From positions 372,001 to 436,000 of the forward strand of contig JAIWZP010000018.1 of the NCBI GenBank assembly GCA_025201375.1: DNA of 64,000 bases, written 5' to 3'. Source of the DNA: Gongronella butleri. Its lineage: Eukaryota > Mucoromycota > Mucoromycetes > Mucorales > Cunninghamellaceae. The position numbers and the translations under genes are program-made. Each line of letters starts with the position of its first letter. Position 1 is the first letter of the stretch. Positions 1,502 through 55,906 of the stretch are shown piece after piece. The notes under the pieces were generated by a model, which saw nothing but the letters and a program-made list of their open reading frames with translations, did no database searches and was not told where the DNA came from.

Positions 1502-3161
1502 TCATGCGGCGGCGTCTTGGTTGGCGGTTGGGCCCAATTGCATGCCAATGATGTAATGGTGTCCCTGGAGGCCTGACGCGGGTGTATGCCAGTAAAGAGT
1601 AAGGTCGACATCGTCCGAGCCATAGAGCGGGAACACGGCAGGTTGTCTGGCGACGGGCACTTGCGAGTGTAGCGACGCCAGCGCGGCCGATCGCCACTGC
1701 ACGCGGCTGTTTTGCTCAAACGATTGCAATGGTGTGGTATCATTCTTCAATGATGGCTCCTTGTGACGCGTAAGATTAAAAAAAAAAAAAAAAAAAAGGG
1801 AATCAGTACCATTTACACCTTCCAATTCTTTGCCTTGATGCGATCAATGACTTACAAAGGATACGTTGGTCACCAAGAGATCCAAGGGAGGCGGCCGGAT
1901 TGCGCTCGCCTTGGCGTCATTCTCGATAAAGGAGGCTAGCGCCTTGGCAGACCATGCTTCGGGTGTCATTGCGTCAGAGACGGGCGCCGACGCGGGACTC
2001 CGCAACTTGTAGTACGCAAAAGTCGTCTGGCGCGGCGGGATGGTGGATTTGTCCTTGATATCTTGGCTATACGCACACAAAAACCATGCCAAAAATACCA
2101 AAAAAAAAAAAAAAAAAAAGGCGAAAAGATAACGAAAAAATGAGATGGTTGCCTTTTTGCATCCTTACTTTCAGCTTACGCGGACGTCATATCAATGCTG
2201 ATGGGGGTCAGTGTCCAGTGAGGGCTGATGGTCGTCAATTGACGCAAATCAAAAGCAGTGGAAGGCTGCATGTTCTCGATCTACATATAAAAAACGGACG
2301 TGTCAGCGCGTACTCCCTCGAAATGAAAGTGTGATTCCTTGAGTGTGTTTACCTCGATGCCCAGCAGGTATTCATCAGTAGTCGCCAGGCTAGGACGCGT
2401 AAACGCGTTGATTTTGAGCGACGGCTGGACTTGCAAGGGAAGGGTATAGCGCAGCGTGCGATACGCGATGGCCGAGTTTTCCTCCTAGATGAAACATGGA
2501 TTAAAATGCGCTTTTTGGTCCTAGACGAGTGTGGTTTTCTATTTCTATTTCAATTTTTTTTGTTTACCTCTGACTGGTAGGAGAAGAGCAATTGCAATGT
2601 GAATGAGCCGATACGATCGCCGCGCAGCCACAAGGGCACGAGTGTGGTCTGGCCGGATGGCACGACGGGTTGGTGCTGATCATTGTCGGATGGCAATGGG
2701 ATGAGCATGACGCTGGGGTCCATGAGCTGATTGGGCGATGAGCGTGTGTGGCACGTGATTCGGTCTGTAGCAGTCGCGTCAGGTTCGTATACAGGAGCGT
2801 CCATGTGTTGCGGGTGGCCGACAGCGCAAAAATTGGGATGGCTCGTCTTGAGACATAGGGACGTCAATCCACGATTACCCTTGTTGTTGATTTCCATGAC
2901 GGCCTGCACGACCTGGCCAGACAGCATAGTGTCAGGCACATTGTGGAATTGCAAATCGAGCAGTGGCATGGGCAATGTCACCAGAATGTCCAATGTATGG
3001 TCCTCAGCCCATGTCGGCGTAACGCGTTGCGCCAATGTGTCATTCAGCCGCTTGCCTTGCTTTTCAAACGCGTGGAACGTGTGCACCTGATCGTTCACCG
3101 TGTAGTGCACACCTCGTACAGAGATCGACCCTTCCTTTTGCGGAATCAGCTTCAGACTCAC

Positions 3162-3215
<54 letters not shown>

Positions 3216-6200
3216 CGCACGATCAGCCCTTCCTTTTTCTTCATTTTACGACTTGAGCTATATACCGTGCGCCGTTCCAAGGGGTCCAAATGCACCTGCG
3301 AGAGCAGTTGCACCTGAAAATCGCCGAGATCAAGCATCCCGTCATCATTGGGCGTACCGGGGACCATGGTATCTTCCAAAAATGCCGATTTTGTCGCATT
3401 CAGCTTGACAGAGGCGCCATATTGGCACCCGAGCACCAATTTGGACAGCGTCACAGCCACCTGCAGCGGATTATGGCATTCAAAGTGCACGGTGCATGGC
3501 TCTAAACGGGGACATCAGCAAAATTAGCAAAATCAGCCCCATTTTCGATTTCATTCATCGCTTACCGCCGACGGCGCAGATCAGACGATCGTCATCTTGC
3601 TGCTGCAATGCGAGGGCTTTTTTGGAGGAGCGCAGATAGCCATTGGCAATGCTGGTGTCGAGCAGCTGGCGTTCCATGGCATTCCATTCGTCCTGACGAT
3701 CTGTGTTGGGCTGCTCATTCGATAGATTGACACGGACGCCCTGGTCTTCGAATTGCGGGATGCCAATGCCGGGTAAGTTCTCAAACAGAGGATCGATGCC
3801 CGCCGCTTGCGTGTATTGCTAAAAAAAAAAAAGTGAGCTTTGGCTTTTTTTTTCTCTTTTTTTTTTCCTTCCATTTTTTTTTTTTTTTTTTGCGCACCTG
3901 ATAGACAAAGAGGAACTCGCGAATATGATCGAGTTGCTGCTGCGGCGTCTGTTTGGCATCTGAGATGACGTGGACAAAGTGTTCGACGGCATCCTCGAGC
4001 AAATTGAGATGAAACGCCTGTCTGCCTAGCGCGAATTGCACGTGGTTCTTTGCGACGGACCAGAGAGAGGTGTCGAGGACCTGTGCAGCTGCAGCATAGC
4101 ATCGGAAGGCGTGGCGGCGCTGCAATGCCTTGGTGTAGCGATGGCCGGCCATGACGAGATGGAAAGCATATTTACGAACCATTGGACGCGGGATGCGCAA
4201 GAAACAATGGGCGGCCTGCTCGAGGAACAAGGCCGAGCGCAAGTCGGAATCCTCGGCAGTCATACGCACAAGTGCCGAGGGCATCTCTTTCCAACATTGC
4301 CTGTCCTTGAGCAATTCGTAAAAGAGGACTGTGGCGCGTGTGGCGTCAAAGGGCGATAGACATCGCCCAAGATATTGTTGCACGGCCAATTCAAAGTGTC
4401 GATCCACCTCTGCCTTGTTCAATTGGGGCGACATGAGCAACAAACACAACCCAAGCATCTCCTGCGTTGCCGCATGGTACTTGTAAGCCTTGTCCGTGGC
4501 AAAATCGCGTCGCACTGTGTCGTAAATCACATGTGCAAACTTGTAATCGTGCAGCATAAACGCATAATCGGCTAGTTTGCGCATTTGCGCTTCGGCAGCA
4601 CCGCTTGGATATCTGTAAAAGAGAGAAAAAAAAAAGGCATGGGTTTGCATGAAAACGAGGATATGAGGAGAAATGAACAAAATTTTACATGGTGAGAGAG
4701 GTAATGCCGGCGGGGACATTGGGACCTGTGGCGGGGATGGATTGGATGGACTGAGCACTGGGACTTTTTGAGTGTGTCGAGCCAAAGAGACGACGACTAG
4801 CTCCAAAAAGACGACCTGTCAAGCCACGACGCGCCGACGCGACCTGTTCATTCCAATGTTGGATGTTGCGCTCCATGAAGGGAAGGATGCTCTGTACGAC
4901 AAGCTCGCGGACCATGACATTGGTGGCGTCTACCTGGTCCAATGTCCAATGTACGCCGTAATGGGTGATTTCCGCGGGTGTAGTCTCGGCATCGGGTGCG
5001 TCCCACTCATTGGGTCGTGTCGTATCGATAGTGAGGTCTGGGGTGGATGAATCGAGGGTATGGGAAGTGGGTAGAGGCAAGATGGTGGCACTTGGCTGGA
5101 TGGGCGGCTGCTGAGGCGGTGGTGTAGGCGATTGTGCTTGGAAAGAGAGTGATGACGACGCGCTATTGGACCGCGTCATGGACATGGGCGTTGAGGGCGA
5201 TGTGGGCGTGTCCACGTCCAAGTCAATGAGCGATGGGCCGGGGGCAACAGCAAGATTCACAGATGCAGCTGAAGCCATGTGTCGTTGGATGGCCGCATTG
5301 TATGCCGCCTTGGACGCAAGGTGCGGCTGCCAGATCGCGTCCAAATCACTCTTTCCATTACTGGCCACATCCACTCCCCCCTGCGGTTGCGAGCTGAGCG
5401 TCAAAAGATGGCAATGGAGCCCAAAATTCTTTTTCATCTTGTCAAACACGGCCTCGGAGCTAAAGAAATAAAAAAAAAGGCGTCGATGCCTCGTTTTCAT
5501 CCCCAGACGCGTCCCAATTCTTACTGCTCCCAAGTGGTCTGCTGCGGGTCATGGATGAGGACGTAATAGCGCAGGATGTTTGTATCGACATATGGCCTGT
5601 CAATGACAAAAGACGGCACATTGGGATTGTACAGCTGCATAATGGTGCCCATAGGATCAGGATTGGCCGACGAGATGGCAATCATCACCGCCACAGGATG
5701 GTCAAACGTATTGTGCTCGGTAATTCCACGCGAATGCATCATCAGCTCCTTAAAATCGCTGTACCATGGCGTCAATGCCTCGATCGAGTCTTGAAACAAA
5801 CCAAAGAAAGAAAAAGAATCACGTTTAAGCATCTTTCTCCTCTCTCTCCCTTTTTTTTTTTTACCTTGGAGATACGCAGAGCTGACATCTTTGGCGACAG
5901 AATGCGCATTTGTCGTGTCTTTGTATTTGAACACGTCCTCGTTGGCCATGGCAAGCAACGCGTGATAGTCGGGCTCGTTCAATTGGTCAATGGGACGGAA
6001 GCGCACGTAAAATTGGTCGATGGTCACCGGGATGCCTTGGCTGTCGCGCGGAGTCACTATGCAAACACGCCATTAAATCATCAATTACGCATCCATCAGT
6101 GTATTTTTGCCCTCCCCCCTTACCTTTGCCGTCAATGGTGTCGCCAAAGGGCTGAATAAAGTCGCAGAATGAGGGCAGATGGTTCGCCTGGCAGATGGCG

Positions 6201-49100: not shown

Positions 49101-52100
49101 ATGAAAAGAATCGCGTCAACTTGTAAGCCGCGTCGCACCGCGTTGGATGTCACATTCTTATTCCTCTTTTTTTAGCCACCATTGGTGGTGCAGACGCAAA
49201 ACGACCAGCGACAAGTAGGAAAAGAGCGTGTATCAGAATGATGACAGTGCCTGACCTGCGGCTGCCTTTCTTTTTTTTGTAACAGTGGACACCCCTGTAT
49301 ACGTGGGTGACGACGACGACGCCCCGAGCGACGCGCAGAGCGAGGAAGCTGGTTCTGTTGACCTGTCCGACGACCATCCCAATGATGATGAAGCGAGCGA
49401 CACGCAGCAAGAGGAGCCTGACACACAGGACAACACGAACGCTCAATCAGACAGCGACGCACACCATGACGAGCCCAGCGACTCGGGCGATGATTCAGGC
49501 GACGATTTTGGCGACCCATCGAGCGACGAGTCAGATGATGAATCCGACGATCCATTGAGTGACGAATTTGACGTTTCATCGAGCGACGAGTCGGTCGAAG
49601 ATCTGGATGATGTGGAAGATGTGGATTTTGTGCCCACGGATGACGGCACTGACACGGAGACGGACGAAATGGACGACAATGTCACCCTAGTGCCCCGCGA
49701 CAACCGCCTGATGATCGAAAATGGACGCTCATCCAGCTTCACCGTGAATCTCGGTGGCCAAGAATACCCTGGTTCAAATCGCATGGAGCCAGGCTACATT
49801 ATAGCCGAGATGCCAAACGTGCTCTTTGTCGGCGTGTTTGGCGGTGATGGCATTCACCATTTCGCGCGGCATATCTTTGGTATTGGTTTTGCCGTTCTGC
49901 ACATCATTGATCTCGTGCGCATCGCCCAGCATATTGGTGTCCCCAGTCCAAAGTTGAGGTGAGTTTCTAAAGTACACTTTATGACTTATTTTTTTCTGAT
50001 TTCATGTCTTTTCTTTTTGCCATGGCGCTGAAAAAGTTTGCGCGCAGAGACAGTGGTGAGCGTGTTGGCTGCCGGACGCTTAGGTAGGGTGACATGGAGT
50101 GCGGTCGACCGACAGATCGAGCGCGATTGGACTACCACGGGCCTGCCATCCTCTCGTGTCATCGATACAGATCTGGACGTCTTGAATTTGTGGTTCCCGG
50201 TGCCATCACCGCTTACGCCCCACTACATCGACACTTTTTTGTTGCTGTTTTTGGGCATTTGGTGGGCTGATGGCTCATGTATATTCTCGGTGCCAGAAAG
50301 CAACGTTGTGCAATGCGCCCAAGCAACCATCTGTGCGCGCGACGTGAACATCCTTAACTGGATTGGCGAGCGATGGCATCAAATTGGTGGCGAAGACGGC
50401 GCCATAGCATGGCGTAACACTGTCCACGTGTGGTCAATCTTGTTGACGCCCGCGCATGTCGACAATCGTCGGCTTTTTACCCGCGCCACGCGGTTGGCGT
50501 CTACCATCCTGGATCCGTTGCCCCCCAAAATCCAAGCCATCCACACGTTGCTCAGCAACGACGATGTGCCAGTGACCGCTTTTAGCGCCAAGGTGAATAT
50601 GGTGCTATTCACTGATTTTGTTGCTCCTGTAGCAAATGACCCGCTTGGACGCGTAGTGGCGCAGTGAGTGCTCGAAAAAAAAAATGAACCAAATGGACCT
50701 CATTTATTTTTTTTAGAGATTTTTATCGTGCGAACGTGTTCATGGTCAATGAGTTTCTGCGTGTCCTGGGCCAGCCAGAAATTGAAAACATCAATGAATT
50801 GGATCTGACAGCCTTCCTGCGATCACTCCTTGCCTTTCAAAATCCCCAGCAAACAATGCAAGGCCACGCATTGGTGGCCTATACGCGGCTGTTGACGCGT
50901 CGAGCGCTGCCATTAACCATCGAGCCACAAAACACGCGAATCGTAAGTTTAAAATATACAAACGCGTGGTGTTTAACCCTTTTTATCCTCTAGGCTGGCC
51001 ACCGATGCGCCGAATGTGACATGGTCATTCGCCACAGACGAGACTTTGAGCGGCATCAAGTCCAAGCTCACAACCATGTAAGGGAAACATCATTTGCACC
51101 AAGCAAAGAAAAAGAAAATCTCACTCGTTGCTTTTCGTTTTTGTTTTGTGTCAGCCAATGTATCCTTGCACGGAGCCGGCATGCGAGGGCATCTTCATTC
51201 ATCTTTATTCATTGGCGTTGCACATTCGCAACGTGCACGCAGGCCCACAAACACGCGTAAATGACGGCGCTCTGCGTTTAAAGTTGGACCCAAGCTCATA
51301 AAAAAAAATTTTTTTTTATGCAGCATCGCCTCCCATGTCCAATGGAGACTTGCACCCTTACGTTCACGACGCGGACGCTGCTTCGACAGCACCTGTTGCA
51401 AACACACGGAGAAGACGTGAGTGGCAAAGGTGTTCATTGACAAAACGAGGCTCATTATTTTCTCTTTTAGACCGCGCATGCATGCCCTGACGCACACTGT
51501 GATTTGGTTTTCCCCAACATGGAAGACCGCGATGAGCATGCGCGTCGCCACGAGCGCAATTTCGTAAGTTTGAGTTGCTTGTTTGACATCAATGTTGAAA
51601 AAATAAGCAAAACAACAATTTAAAATGGTCAAATTCTTGTTTTTTATTAGTTTGCTTGTGTGTATTGCCCTTACCACTCTGCAAACCGGTCCGATTTAAG
51701 TCAACATTATCAAGCTCAACATCAAAATCTCATGGATGGCACACGCTACAGATGCCCACACCCTGGATGCCCTCAGACTCACGCAAAACCCTACGGTATT
51801 CTGCATCATTTCTATATGGTGCACCAGGTAAATGATCATGAGCTATTTGTCGTTTTGCATATTGAAAAATATCTCTTGGTGGGGTACAGAAAGCGCGGCA
51901 CAGATGCAATCAAGAGGGATGCGTGTACGAGACAGCGGTGCGAGGCAAAATGCATCGCCATTTGCTGGCCGTGCACGGCATTCGATGGGAAAGAATCCTA
52001 CGAATGAATCGTCTGCGTGTGAATCAACAACAGGTAAGCATCAGATGCTTGTCAATTTCAATGGCACTCACTTTCCTTTTTTTCTCTTGTAGATGCATGC

Positions 52101-53372
52101 CTGCACACTTGATAATTGTCTTTGGTGGTTCCCCAACCAAGCAGACCGCGACGCGCACGTGTCACGTCACGGAGATCGCGCTGTAAGCATCAAATGCGAA
52201 AAACAAGGGCTCAACTCATCCATTTTTATGTTGTAGAATGCGTGTTTTCATTGCGCGCACAACGCCAATTCAGCGACAGATCTCACGCAACATTATCGAG
52301 AAGCCCATCCGCAGAGCTTCCAAGAAGGACGTTATCATTGTCCAATTGACGATTGCACGCACCACGCTGTCGACCGATCAAAACTGTATTCCCACATTTT
52401 GGCAGCGCATCAGGTAAGACGATTTTTGAGTTTTATATCCTTTGGTTCACTGACTAGTCTCGTTTTTTTTTTTTTTACACAGAATGCCATCCTGAAATGT
52501 GACCAACAAGGCTGCCATCACGAAACCACCAATGACACCGCCATGACAACGCATTATCGCCGAATTCATGAAATGCCACGACCTCGTATACGCCATGGCC
52601 GTTCGCGTATGAATCAACAACAGGTAAGCATCAGGTGCTCGTCAATTGCAATGCACTCATTATCCTGTTTTTTTGTAGATGCATGCTTGCACACATGATG
52701 ATTGTCTTTGGTGGTTCCTCAGCCAAGCGGACCGCGACGCACACATGTTAATTCATGGAGATCGCGCTGTAAGCATCAAATGCGACAAAACAAGGGCTCA
52801 ACAGAGCCATTTTTGTGTTGTAGAATGGGTGTTTTCATTGCGCGCACAACGCCAATTCAGCCACAGATTTGACACAACACTACAGACAAGCCCATCCAGA
52901 CATATTCCATGAAGGTCGATACCATTGTCCAGTTGACGATTGCACGTACCACGCTGTCGACCGATCAATCCTGTATTCCCACATTTTGGCAGCGCATCAG
53001 GTAAGACGATTTTTGATTTTTATGTCCTTTGGCTCACTGACTATTCTCGTTTTTTATTTATTTTTTACGCAGAATGCCATCTTGAAATGTGACCAACAAG
53101 GCTGCCATCACGAAACCACCAACGATACCGCCATGACGGACCATTATCGCCGAGCTCATCAAGTGCCACGACCTCGTCCCCATGGCAATGCGGCACCAGC
53201 AGCTCGCCCCGCAGCAGCGCGTCAGACCCCAGCACGTACCGCTCGCTCCGCAACAGCGCGTCAAAACCCAGCACGTGCAGCTCGTCCCGCAACGCCGCGT
53301 CGAAACCCAGCGCGTGCAGCTCGCCCCGCAACACTGCGCCGAAACCCAGCGCGTGCTGGTCGCCGCACCTAA
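49101..53372 (+). CDS. Candidate LAGLIDADG homing-endonuclease-like protein with 15 C2H2 zinc fingers
   Basis: Seventeen exons join in frame to 1084 residues: 49101-49122, 49176-49214, 49286-49958, 50037-50663, 50717-50942, 50994-51077, 51155-51256, 51324-51416, 51471-51563, 51651-51827, 51890-52033, 52093-52182, 52237-52413, 52483-52623, 52679-52768, 52824-53000, 53073-53372. Residues ~24-165 are very acidic. Two LAGLIDADG-like helices follow, each ending in Asp-Gly: LFVGVFGGDG (~200) and LLFLGIWWADGS (~315). The second leads into ATICARDVNILNWIGERW, a typical post-motif pattern. From ~530 on, fifteen fingers of form C-x2/4-C-x12-H-x3/4-H lie one or two per exon, all on phase-0 introns. The C-terminus is an Ala/Arg/Pro-rich repeat. 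Domain order recalls yeast HO. The first two tiny exons and the exon 4 acceptor (aaaaag) are the weakest parts. It could instead be a transcription factor carrying a decayed nuclease domain. Confidence 0.72.
51471..53300 (+). repeat. Three-exon block repeated three times within the zinc-finger gene
   Basis: Exons 9-11, 12-14 and 15-17 have matching sizes (93/90/90, 177/177/177, then 144/141 and a 300-base last exon). Blocks 2 and 3, offset by 586 bases, are nearly identical in exons and very similar in introns; both begin their second intron with gtaagcatcaaatgcga and end exons with identical words. Block 1 is more diverged. Each block encodes four C2H2 fingers. Confidence 0.93.
53212..53366 (+). 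repeat. 39-bp coding tandem repeat at the 3' end of the zinc-finger gene
   Basis: About four units of a 39-base sequence containing cgtcaaaacccagcacgtgc and agctcgtcccgcaac encode a 13-residue Ala-Arg-Pro-Ala-Thr-x-Arg-x-Asn-Pro-Ala-Arg motif. The repeat is confined to the last exon, after the final finger, and is absent from the two earlier block copies. It gives a basic, probably disordered tail. Confidence 0.88.
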
Positions 53373-53816
53373 CATTTCAAAAAAAAAAAAAAACATCGTA
53401 ACAATTGCTCTATGTTTCCTTTTAGCGCAATTCTGATACCGATCACAGCCCCATCTTTCAGTCCATTTTCTGTTCTTACCCTATAAATCTCTTTGTCGCA
53501 TGAAAAGGCAAATTCTCCTTGTGCATTTCAATAAAAAAAACGCTCATTGAATTTACCATCAAATTTTCCGTGAAAATCATCACATGTTCATTTTGAGATG
53601 CGAGCCAAGTGTCGTTTTTAGGCCAGAAACGCGTCCAAATGTGAAATTGGAAGGTGGAAATCTTGGGACGCGACTGGCTTCTACCAATAAAGCAAGCGGA
53701 CGCTCTCCTTTTTATTATCCTTTGAATTGTCAGGGCGCGTCGATTAGGTGACAAAAATGGAAAAAACCGGCCATTTCGTTGTCCACGCCAAAAAAAAAAG
53801 ATAAAACATTTAAATC
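53373..53816. other. Spacer between the zinc-finger gene and the methyltransferase pseudogene
   Basis: About 440 bases, A/T-rich, with an A run at 53380-53393. No gene is seen. It includes the 3' end of the zinc-finger gene and the lost upstream part of the pseudogene. Confidence 0.55.
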
Positions 53817-55906
53817 TTGATTGGCGCGCCGTCGCCGGTGTCGCACCGCTCCATTATGGCCTATCTTCGTCTCTTTGCCACCAAAAACGAATACATTCTC
53901 AGTTGCCCGGACGACGCGTTTACTTGGTACCATTCAACGCATCGGGCGCGAATTGACGAATTGATCGCCAAAAAATTCAAAAAAAAAAAATGCCGCGTCA
54001 CATTCCAGTCTCTCGATCCTGTTGACAAGATTTTGAAGCGCTTTTACGCTGCGCATCTCTTGGACGCCCTTGATCGAAAGCACAAAAGAAGCCACGTTCG
54101 ATATTACACGCCGCAATCCGTCGTCCAATTTATGTAGGATCGCTGTTTCCAAGGCATCGATTGTGGCGATATCCTTTCTCAGCCAACGCGACGCATTTTT
54201 GACCCATACATGGGGGTTGGCGCTTTCCTTTGCCAATATTTGGTTCGCGTGCATCATGCTGCACTGCAGAATAATGAATTGTGGCATGACAGCTCTGCAC
54301 TCAAGTCGATGTTTATGCAATTGCCAAGCTGCCTGTGGGGAGTGGAGATCGACCCTTTTGCCTATCGACTTTGCAAACTCAATGTCATTATACATCTGTT
54401 TCCATTGTATTTGCGCTGTGTGATGCGCTGTGTGATGCTCGGAGTCTCATTCCAAGGATTGGAGTTTGATCAGTTATGTCTGTTTTGCAATGACACACTC
54501 GTTTTGGCACTTCCAGACGCGCAATTGCACGCGTGGGAGCACAATAAGCTCGTGAATCTCCGCAACCCGGCTCAATTGCAATTTGACATGATCCTTGGCA
54601 ATCCGCCCTATGTTCAACGACACCACAGCTTTGAAGCCAAGGCGATTGGTTCCATCTACGACCTCAGCTTGCTTGGTTCGCGGAATGTCCAAGCTTACAA
54701 TACTTTTTGGTTTTTTGTCTCGAGCGTCTGCATCCAGCTGGGCAGCTCTGCCTCATCACTCCAACACAATGGCTTCTGCATCGCTTTGGCTCGGCAATCA
54801 GGTAAAAAAAAAACGAATTGAGACGCGACGCGGCACGATTTGCTGACTTTTTTTTATTTATTTTTAGAGCCAAAATATGAGCCGCATTTCAATTGCTGGA
54901 GGGCTTTGTTTTCAAGACAAACAAGGTCTTTGCAAGAACAAAAACTGACTCGATCGTGCTTAGGGTGCGCAGGTCCCAAGAAGGCAAAGTGTGTTGATCA
55001 TTGATCTTTGTGGAACACAAGTCCCCTGCGGCCAAATTGTCAGAAATCCTCGAAATCTATGGCCGTCTCGCTCCAGAAATCATCGGTTCAAGATCGTGCA
55101 ACCATTGACTTTGGGCAGCTACAGCCCCCGGGCGCCACGCCAGCGCTTCTTTTTGGATCCCAACAATCTGAGCATCACACCACAAAGCTTGTACATCACG
55201 CTCGCTTATTCAAGTAAAACGAAACAAATGATGGGCTTCATTCTAAGCGACGACGGCACCTGCGGCGATGACGAATTCAGCGCTTTCTGCGAAGAAGCGG
55301 CCTATCTATTCTTCACCGGTCTGCTCAATTTCGCTATTTCTCTTTCACGTGCTGTAGACACGATGTGGACGGTCATCTTTACGGCAGCGATGTCGCCACG
55401 CTGCCTAATGCACCGCCGACGGCCATTCACGCGCAAACCACCGCACTCTCGGTCCAAGTGCAAATCGATTTGCGCGATCGCATTTTTGCCATGAATTCGG
55501 ACCTCTCCAAGGGCCAAAGCCGACCAATTCTCTGCGCTCACTCACTTGGGATCTCGATCAGAGTGCCATTGACATTGTCAATCAGCACGTTGTGTTTGTC
55601 AACAATGAGGAGGCGCCGCCCTGCAGTAATGCCATGGATCTCGCGCTTGCTCAAGGTCGCGGCTCGGCTTCTGATCGTCTCATCCGCCTCATGGTTGCCC
55701 ATTCACTGATGCAGCATGCCATTGAGCACGTTGTATACGATCTCTACCAGGTGCCTTGGGATCTGTGCGAAAGAATTCAGCGCGAACAAGAATTGTCGCT
55801 CAATGCACAATGGGTAAAATATCAAATCCCCCTTGCAACTTGCCGAGTATATCCTCAATGGTTCCACTATGGTGCAATCCATGGCCATTTCCTAGTTTTT
55901 GATTAA
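53817..55906 (+). pseudogene. Broken copy of the Eco57I-like DNA methyltransferase
   Basis: Parallels the intact gene from about residue 215 to its C-terminus. Matching blocks are RYYTP, the SAM motif DPYMGVGAF, GVEIDPFAYRLCKLNVIIHLFPL, ILGNPPY, PRQRFFLDPN and QHAIEHVVYDLYQ. Damage: the N-terminal exon is missing; an in-frame TAG at 54136-54138 stands where the intact gene has a Trp codon; an intron position is kept after 54801 but the frame is then lost; about 250 residues of the middle are deleted near 54990-55030; and further shifts split the C-terminal part into at least two frames. The long open stretch 54210-54801 suggests that inactivation is not ancient. Confidence 0.9.

Follow-up and report, generated by a model that had tools for sequence, protein, structure and literature searches.

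The gene at positions 49101–53372 (forward strand) of a 64,000-nucleotide stretch of DNA from the soil fungus Gongronella butleri (Mucorales), hereafter the window, joins a LAGLIDADG endonuclease-like domain to an array of C2H2 zinc fingers and belongs to a family of loci in the same genome (33.0 Mb in 110 contigs, the window being part of contig 21). On balance, we favour the reading that this family consists of nuclear LAGLIDADG–C2H2 fusions behaving like the WHO homing elements of yeast, with the window gene as a member that has an open reading frame (ORF). The observations behind this reading are the fusion, the conserved aspartates, the mixture of open and broken copies and the duplications of host-gene ends at some of the paralogs.

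The first-pass annotation of the window had proposed a 17-exon gene with two acid-bearing LAGLIDADG-like motifs about 115 residues apart and fifteen C2H2 fingers behind them, and all three features were recovered. The acceptor of intron 3 was placed at 50036, with exon 4 starting at 50037, since splicing to the AG at 50047 disrupts the reading frame; with this acceptor the model is a single in-frame ORF of 1084 codons without a stop, spliced from 17 exons across 16 GT–AG introns of 51–87 bp. An acidic, low-complexity N-terminal part (approximately residues 21–172; 49286–49740) is followed by the family domain (residues 173–529; 49741–50942), which is common wholly or partly to 19 other loci in the genome and contains introns 3 (49959–50036) and 4 (50664–50716). 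Motif 1 is FVGVFGGDG (residues 201–209; 49825–49851) with the acid D208, and motif 2 is FLGIWWADG (residues 316–324; 50248–50274) with the acid D323, a spacing of 115 residues. K409 in LPPKI (50527–50529) is a candidate catalytic lysine, which would be the counterpart of I-CreI Lys98. The fifteen fingers, counted by pattern, are encoded in exons 6–17 (51006–53159), and introns 5–16 are all in phase 0. The overlapping NCBI model P0001 (BC940DRAFT_333095; 961 aa) is spliced identically in the LAGLIDADG region but has a different first exon, no exon 8, a different 3′ end and 11 fingers, so the gene ends and the number of fingers are unsettled.

The extent of the family was determined by searching the genome with residues 173–529 (E≤10), which gave 28 matching pieces, distributed over the window gene and 15 more loci. 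A paralog used as query added four further loci and a second paralog query added none, for a total of 20 loci including the window. Splicing of the paralogs was scripted and covers their domain rather than their complete genes. Both motifs are held by nine of the 20 loci, and the remaining 11 are broken or partial. Six of the nine were plainly spliced by the script (the window, L029, L030, L031, L032 and L035), and L040, L041 and L042 have both motifs with an unsettled middle splice. All nine two-motif members carry an aspartate at motif 1, an aspartate at motif 2 and a basic residue (K/R) at the LPPK position. Identity to the window sequence is only 21–34 % and the aspartates are nonetheless kept; since both are present in 9/9 members, the motif pair is more than chance. 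The midpoint-rooted family tree has two groups, L040/L041/L042 and all others, with a median end branch of 1.18 changes per column. Protein database searches returned only P0001, a hypothetical protein of G. butleri, or nothing, and as they also missed known paralogs, they say nothing on other species. Scans against NCBIfam and PHROGs gave nothing useful.

The LAGLIDADG identity proposed earlier for the window gene held at the level of family profiles, which match LAGLIDADG enzymes, but not for the window protein alone or for the repeat around motif 1 (repeat 1). The window protein by itself had no LAGLIDADG match in a whole-protein Pfam scan (E≤10) and no relative in the PDB. When Pfam LAGLIDADG_3 was searched across the 33-Mb genome (E≤10), the sole match was paralog L032 (one candidate scored), at 24.7 bits against a cut-off of 22.5, and of the nine members scanned singly three matched this family (best E 6.1e-5), the window member having no match. 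The nine-member profile matched 41 PDB sequences at E≤10, of which 35 were LAGLIDADG enzymes (best E 1.9e-6). For the profile of repeat 2, around motif 2, searched at E≤1, 58 LAGLIDADG enzymes were found among the best 60 of 80 matches, of the I-CreI, I-OnuI, I-DmoI, I-MsoI, I-CvuI and I-HjeMI types, and the best match was a two-copy I-CreI derivative (E 1.3e-7). The sum of these profile results establishes repeat 2, at the level of sequence, as a LAGLIDADG repeat containing the expected helix with its acid and the fold region behind it, an assignment that reaches the window member through the family profile only. Repeat 1 is a putative LAGLIDADG half by motif and position only, its motif GD[GA]xH (invariant GD..H) being present in 9/9 two-motif members. 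The endonucleases that gave the best matches of repeat 2, of the I-CreI, I-OnuI and I-DmoI types, are intron-encoded and have no fingers. Rfam at gathering scores gave 0 matches in the window and nine loci; therefore, no group I intron was found there and the gene was not placed inside one.

Downstream of the domain, fingers were counted over 2.5 kb with a strict C2H2 pattern. All ten loci examined (the nine two-motif members and L033) had 3 to 15 fingers, while both controls, the opposite strand and the upstream sequence, had 0 in these loci, including the window. The window gene has the largest array of the ten, with 15 C-C-H-H fingers. The whole-protein Pfam scan of the window protein (E≤10) gave no C2H2 match; among its 12 finger exons, nine were scanned singly and seven of these matched a C2H2-type family, all below cut-off, and a finger exon of paralog L031 was above the zf-C2H2 Pfam cut-off. 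The nuclear LAGLIDADG–C2H2 fusion suggested by the first-pass annotation is thus supported both by the family profiles and by downstream fingers in 10/10 loci.

Within the window array, exons 12–14 with flanking sequence (52015–52599) and exons 15–17 in part (52605–53186) are copies of one another, with 87 % identity over 589 bp and 84–93 % identity between those of their introns that were compared. Over 124 codons the copies gave a dS of 0.309, a dN of 0.092 and a dN/dS of 0.30. The window array grew by such exon duplication, and the duplicated block is under purifying selection. Genome-wide, zf-C2H2 gave at least 81 matches (150 of 265 candidates scored), and C2H2 genes are therefore common in G. 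butleri.

Direct repeats within single loci were first noticed by locus-to-locus comparison. Under a rule set after these repeats had been seen (at least 250 bp, at least 75 % identity and at least 1.5 kb apart), a flanking repeat was present at 5/19 paralog loci (L033, L037, L041, L042 and L047). In each of the five, the pair is in direct orientation and flanks the nuclease gene or its relic. The same rule applied to eight control tiles of 9 kb (six of them from the window, one containing the gene) gave 0/8, and comparison of left with right flanks of different loci gave 0 direct and three inverted among 380 pairs, which are non-independent. Four of the repeats, L033 excluded, were searched genome-wide, and each had its full-length copies, two in number, at its own locus and nowhere else among the candidates scored (40 of 56 for L047 and 40 of 1009 for L037). 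A dispersed element forms part of the L047 and L037 repeats. The part in L037 is a dispersed repeat of approximately 430 bp that recurs at 38 or more other genomic sites, and hits related to it lie in L029, L033, L038 and L045. A tandem repeat upstream of L031 was excluded, as it does not lie on both sides of the gene and by eye resembles the 5′ exons of L031 itself more than a host gene.

At three of the five flanked loci, the repeat could be related to a neighbouring gene. The repeated sequence at L042 is the 5′ end of a gene resembling ClpB/Hsp78 (AAA, 6.4e-6; AAA_lid_9, 6.1e-6), which continues beyond the repeat to its C-terminal domain; the adjoining L050 matches AAA_2 (4.1e-11) and ClpB_D2-small (6.9e-28). 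Homology between the copies ends just past the exon coding LDPVIGRDEEIRRTLEG. At L041 it is the 3′ end of a gene resembling FAD monooxygenases (FAD_binding_3, 1.5e-20), with homology ending at the stretch GDAAH...GLGANTALM, which we take to be a conserved FAD motif. At L033, where the nuclease gene is broken, the repeated sequence is the 5′ part of an ORF that adjoins a permease-like ORF, whose AA_permease match (6.8e-5; 22.2 of 24.6 bits) is below cut-off. The order at such loci is host-gene fragment, nuclease–finger gene, longer host gene; a position between a host gene and its duplicated end was found at L041 and L042, is likely at L033 and was not found at the window copy. That a few copies sit between a host gene and a duplicated segment of it suggests spread by the cutting of host genes.

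Other features were recorded at paralog loci. L030 has an amino-acid transporter ORF (1564–2787, forward strand; Aa_trans, 4.3e-50) that ends approximately 470 bases before the domain, which starts at 3260, with no repeat there. L041 has a CUE-like segment, within the presumed N-terminal part of the paralog, at 1447–1890 (17.6 of 21.1 bits, below the Pfam cut-off), and the stretch adjoining it is tandemly duplicated. L047 resembles this region by eye only and has no Pfam CUE match.

The arrangement at the flanked loci resembles that of the yeast WHO elements, for which the published account (Coughlan 2020, PMC7282813) describes a position between a full FBA1 gene and a duplicated 3′ fragment of approximately 400 bp. 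There it is proposed that the nuclease cuts a sensitive FBA1 and that repair then brings in the element along with a resistant gene end, so that the old end comes to lie past the element. Insertions of WHO10 occurred at host genes other than FBA1, two of them with duplicated 3′ ends. By analogy, we infer that the Gongronella family works like WHO, in the same cycle with the fingers choosing the site. The fingers would select a target within a host gene and the LAGLIDADG core would cut there; repair of the break would then place a copy of the element next to that gene, with the duplicated host-gene end left on the far side of the element. Shared with HO and WHO as described in that text are a free-standing nuclear LAGLIDADG gene with a zinc-binding C-terminus and a mixture of open genes and pseudogenes; shared with WHO is, at some paralogs, the position between a host gene and the duplicated end of the same gene.

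The comparison of domain order with HO made in the first-pass annotation stands as an analogy and falls short of kinship, since in that account HO and WHO have an intein region and CxxC fingers. They are described there as the only intein–zinc finger fusions, with three to five GATA-like CxxC motifs, whereas the Gongronella family has 3–15 C2H2 fingers and no GATA-like CxxC zinc domain. The Gongronella genes further differ in having many spliceosomal introns, several host genes, both 5′ and 3′ host-gene ends and a place in the Mucoromycota. A Pfam scan of the full window protein (E≤10) gave no intein/Hint match, in a scan that also missed LAGLIDADG and C2H2. With the finger feature absent and the intein feature undecided, the family was therefore not classed as WHO. 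Descent from the yeast HO/WHO/VDE intein lineage by movement into the Mucorales would account for the similar domain order and neighbourhood pattern, but the C2H2 type of the fingers, the intein result just given and best PDB matches of the I-CreI, I-OnuI and I-DmoI types make it the least likely of the explanations considered.

Several results weigh against a WHO-like family. The profile of repeat 1 had four PDB matches, none of them LAGLIDADG, and comparison of repeats 1 and 2 by hhalign was not significant; in the repeat 2 search, single I-CreI chains started from E 0.0016 and two designed helical proteins followed at 0.0027 and 0.0033. AlphaFold without an alignment gave mean pLDDT values of 35.8 for P0001 and 37.4 for exon 4 alone, which are too low to give a fold. 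The missing profile support for repeat 1, together with the lack of a LAGLIDADG match for the window protein alone, is what would be expected if the LAGLIDADG likeness were due to chance and residues 190–520 formed another domain. Such a chance likeness is contradicted by the L032 Pfam match, the singly matching members and the PDB profile matches, and we regard it as very unlikely.

The repeats themselves carry further counterweights: the rule was fixed after the fact, the controls amount to eight tiles, and the flank pairs give no measure of local duplication in general. Under a laxer rule (at least 170 bp and at least 60 %) there were eight same-locus pairs and 12 cross-locus pairs, six of the latter direct. 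No flanking repeat was present at 14/19 paralog loci or at the window gene, and the plainly spliced copies, six with the window, all lacked one; the flanked copies are broken (L033, L037 and L047) or have an unsettled middle splice (L041 and L042). Two of the five repeats (L037 and L047) correspond to no recognized host gene. Searches by tblastx and blastn of 15.1 kb to the left and 10.6 kb to the right of the window gene found no convincing diverged host fragment, the best results being a tblastx E of 0.01 and a 37-base blastn match at 7e-5. Sixteen introns are also unusual for a mobile homing gene.

Some of these results would fit an ordinary divergent gene family spread by segmental duplication, with the repeats as transposon remnants or as local duplications that are unrelated: only 5/19 loci have repeats, dispersed repeats overlap two of these five, and controls are few. 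Such a family would leave unexplained that the five repeat pairs are all direct and all flank the gene, and that in two to three loci the repeated sequence is one end of the longer gene next to it. We therefore consider this explanation improbable.

A domesticated DNA-binding regulator, in which the LAGLIDADG core serves solely as a DNA-binding scaffold and the window gene, through its long finger array, acts as a transcription factor or as a host enzyme for programmed breaks, is more plausible than an ordinary gene family, although still unlikely. It is favoured by the open 1084-aa frame, the largest of ten finger arrays and the missing flanking duplication in the window, by the dN/dS of 0.30 in the duplicated finger block, and by the plainly spliced copies, 0/6 of which are flanked. 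It fits poorly with both aspartates being conserved among members so divergent from the window sequence, with the many broken copies in the family and with the host-gene duplications at some paralogs. The first-pass annotation had left the choice between a selfish and a domesticated gene open; the selfish option gains from these duplications, and the window copy itself may be either. As it has no flanking duplication, the window gene would, within a WHO-like family, be an old immobile insertion or a copy kept for a host function.

A broader form of the homing reading, to which we give somewhat less than even weight, is that an early-diverging fungus independently gave rise to free-standing nuclear homing elements that are natural zinc-finger meganucleases. 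Their core would be retargeted to host genes (ClpB/Hsp78-like, FAD monooxygenase and permease-like) by swapping and duplicating exon-encoded C2H2 fingers, and the 15-finger window gene would be the extreme case or a domesticated branch. Engineered zinc-finger nucleases likewise join a C2H2 array to a nuclease domain, and are man-made and FokI-based. If the reading is true, this would add a second system of the kind, one that uses C2H2 fingers and belongs to a different phylum, and would show that fusing a nuclease to fingers can lead repeatedly to selfish elements that target genes. It would also provide natural modular nucleases to study, and retargeting through finger exon shuffling would be directly testable across approximately 20 loci and several sequenced strains, PMC9117579 noting seven other G. 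butleri strains in SRA.

Other parallels were noted in the literature. WhiA/DUF199 reuses a LAGLIDADG core in a cellular gene and is described in PMC7282813 as having lost cutting, whereas the Gongronella family keeps its aspartates. For HCMV pUL56, a terminase subunit, LAGLIDADG-like and zinc finger patterns are reported together in one protein (PMC6950143). Among the matches listed in a search of open-licence literature, there was no report of LAGLIDADG–C2H2 genes in Mucoromycota, and the terms endonuclease, LAGLIDADG and zinc finger were all absent from the accessible portion of the G. butleri genome paper (PMC9117579).

Elsewhere in the window, a tandem array of units of approximately 95–100 bp, 83–88 % alike, occupies positions 146–1168. 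Directly downstream of the gene, on the forward strand, lies a methylase-like region with an ORF (54138–54818; Eco57I, 1.1e-8; N6_Mtase, 8.6e-7), separated by an in-frame TAG from a preceding ORF (53814–54134, forward strand) with no family match. This region (53814–54821) resembles a methylase of bacterial type, here in the genome of a fungus.

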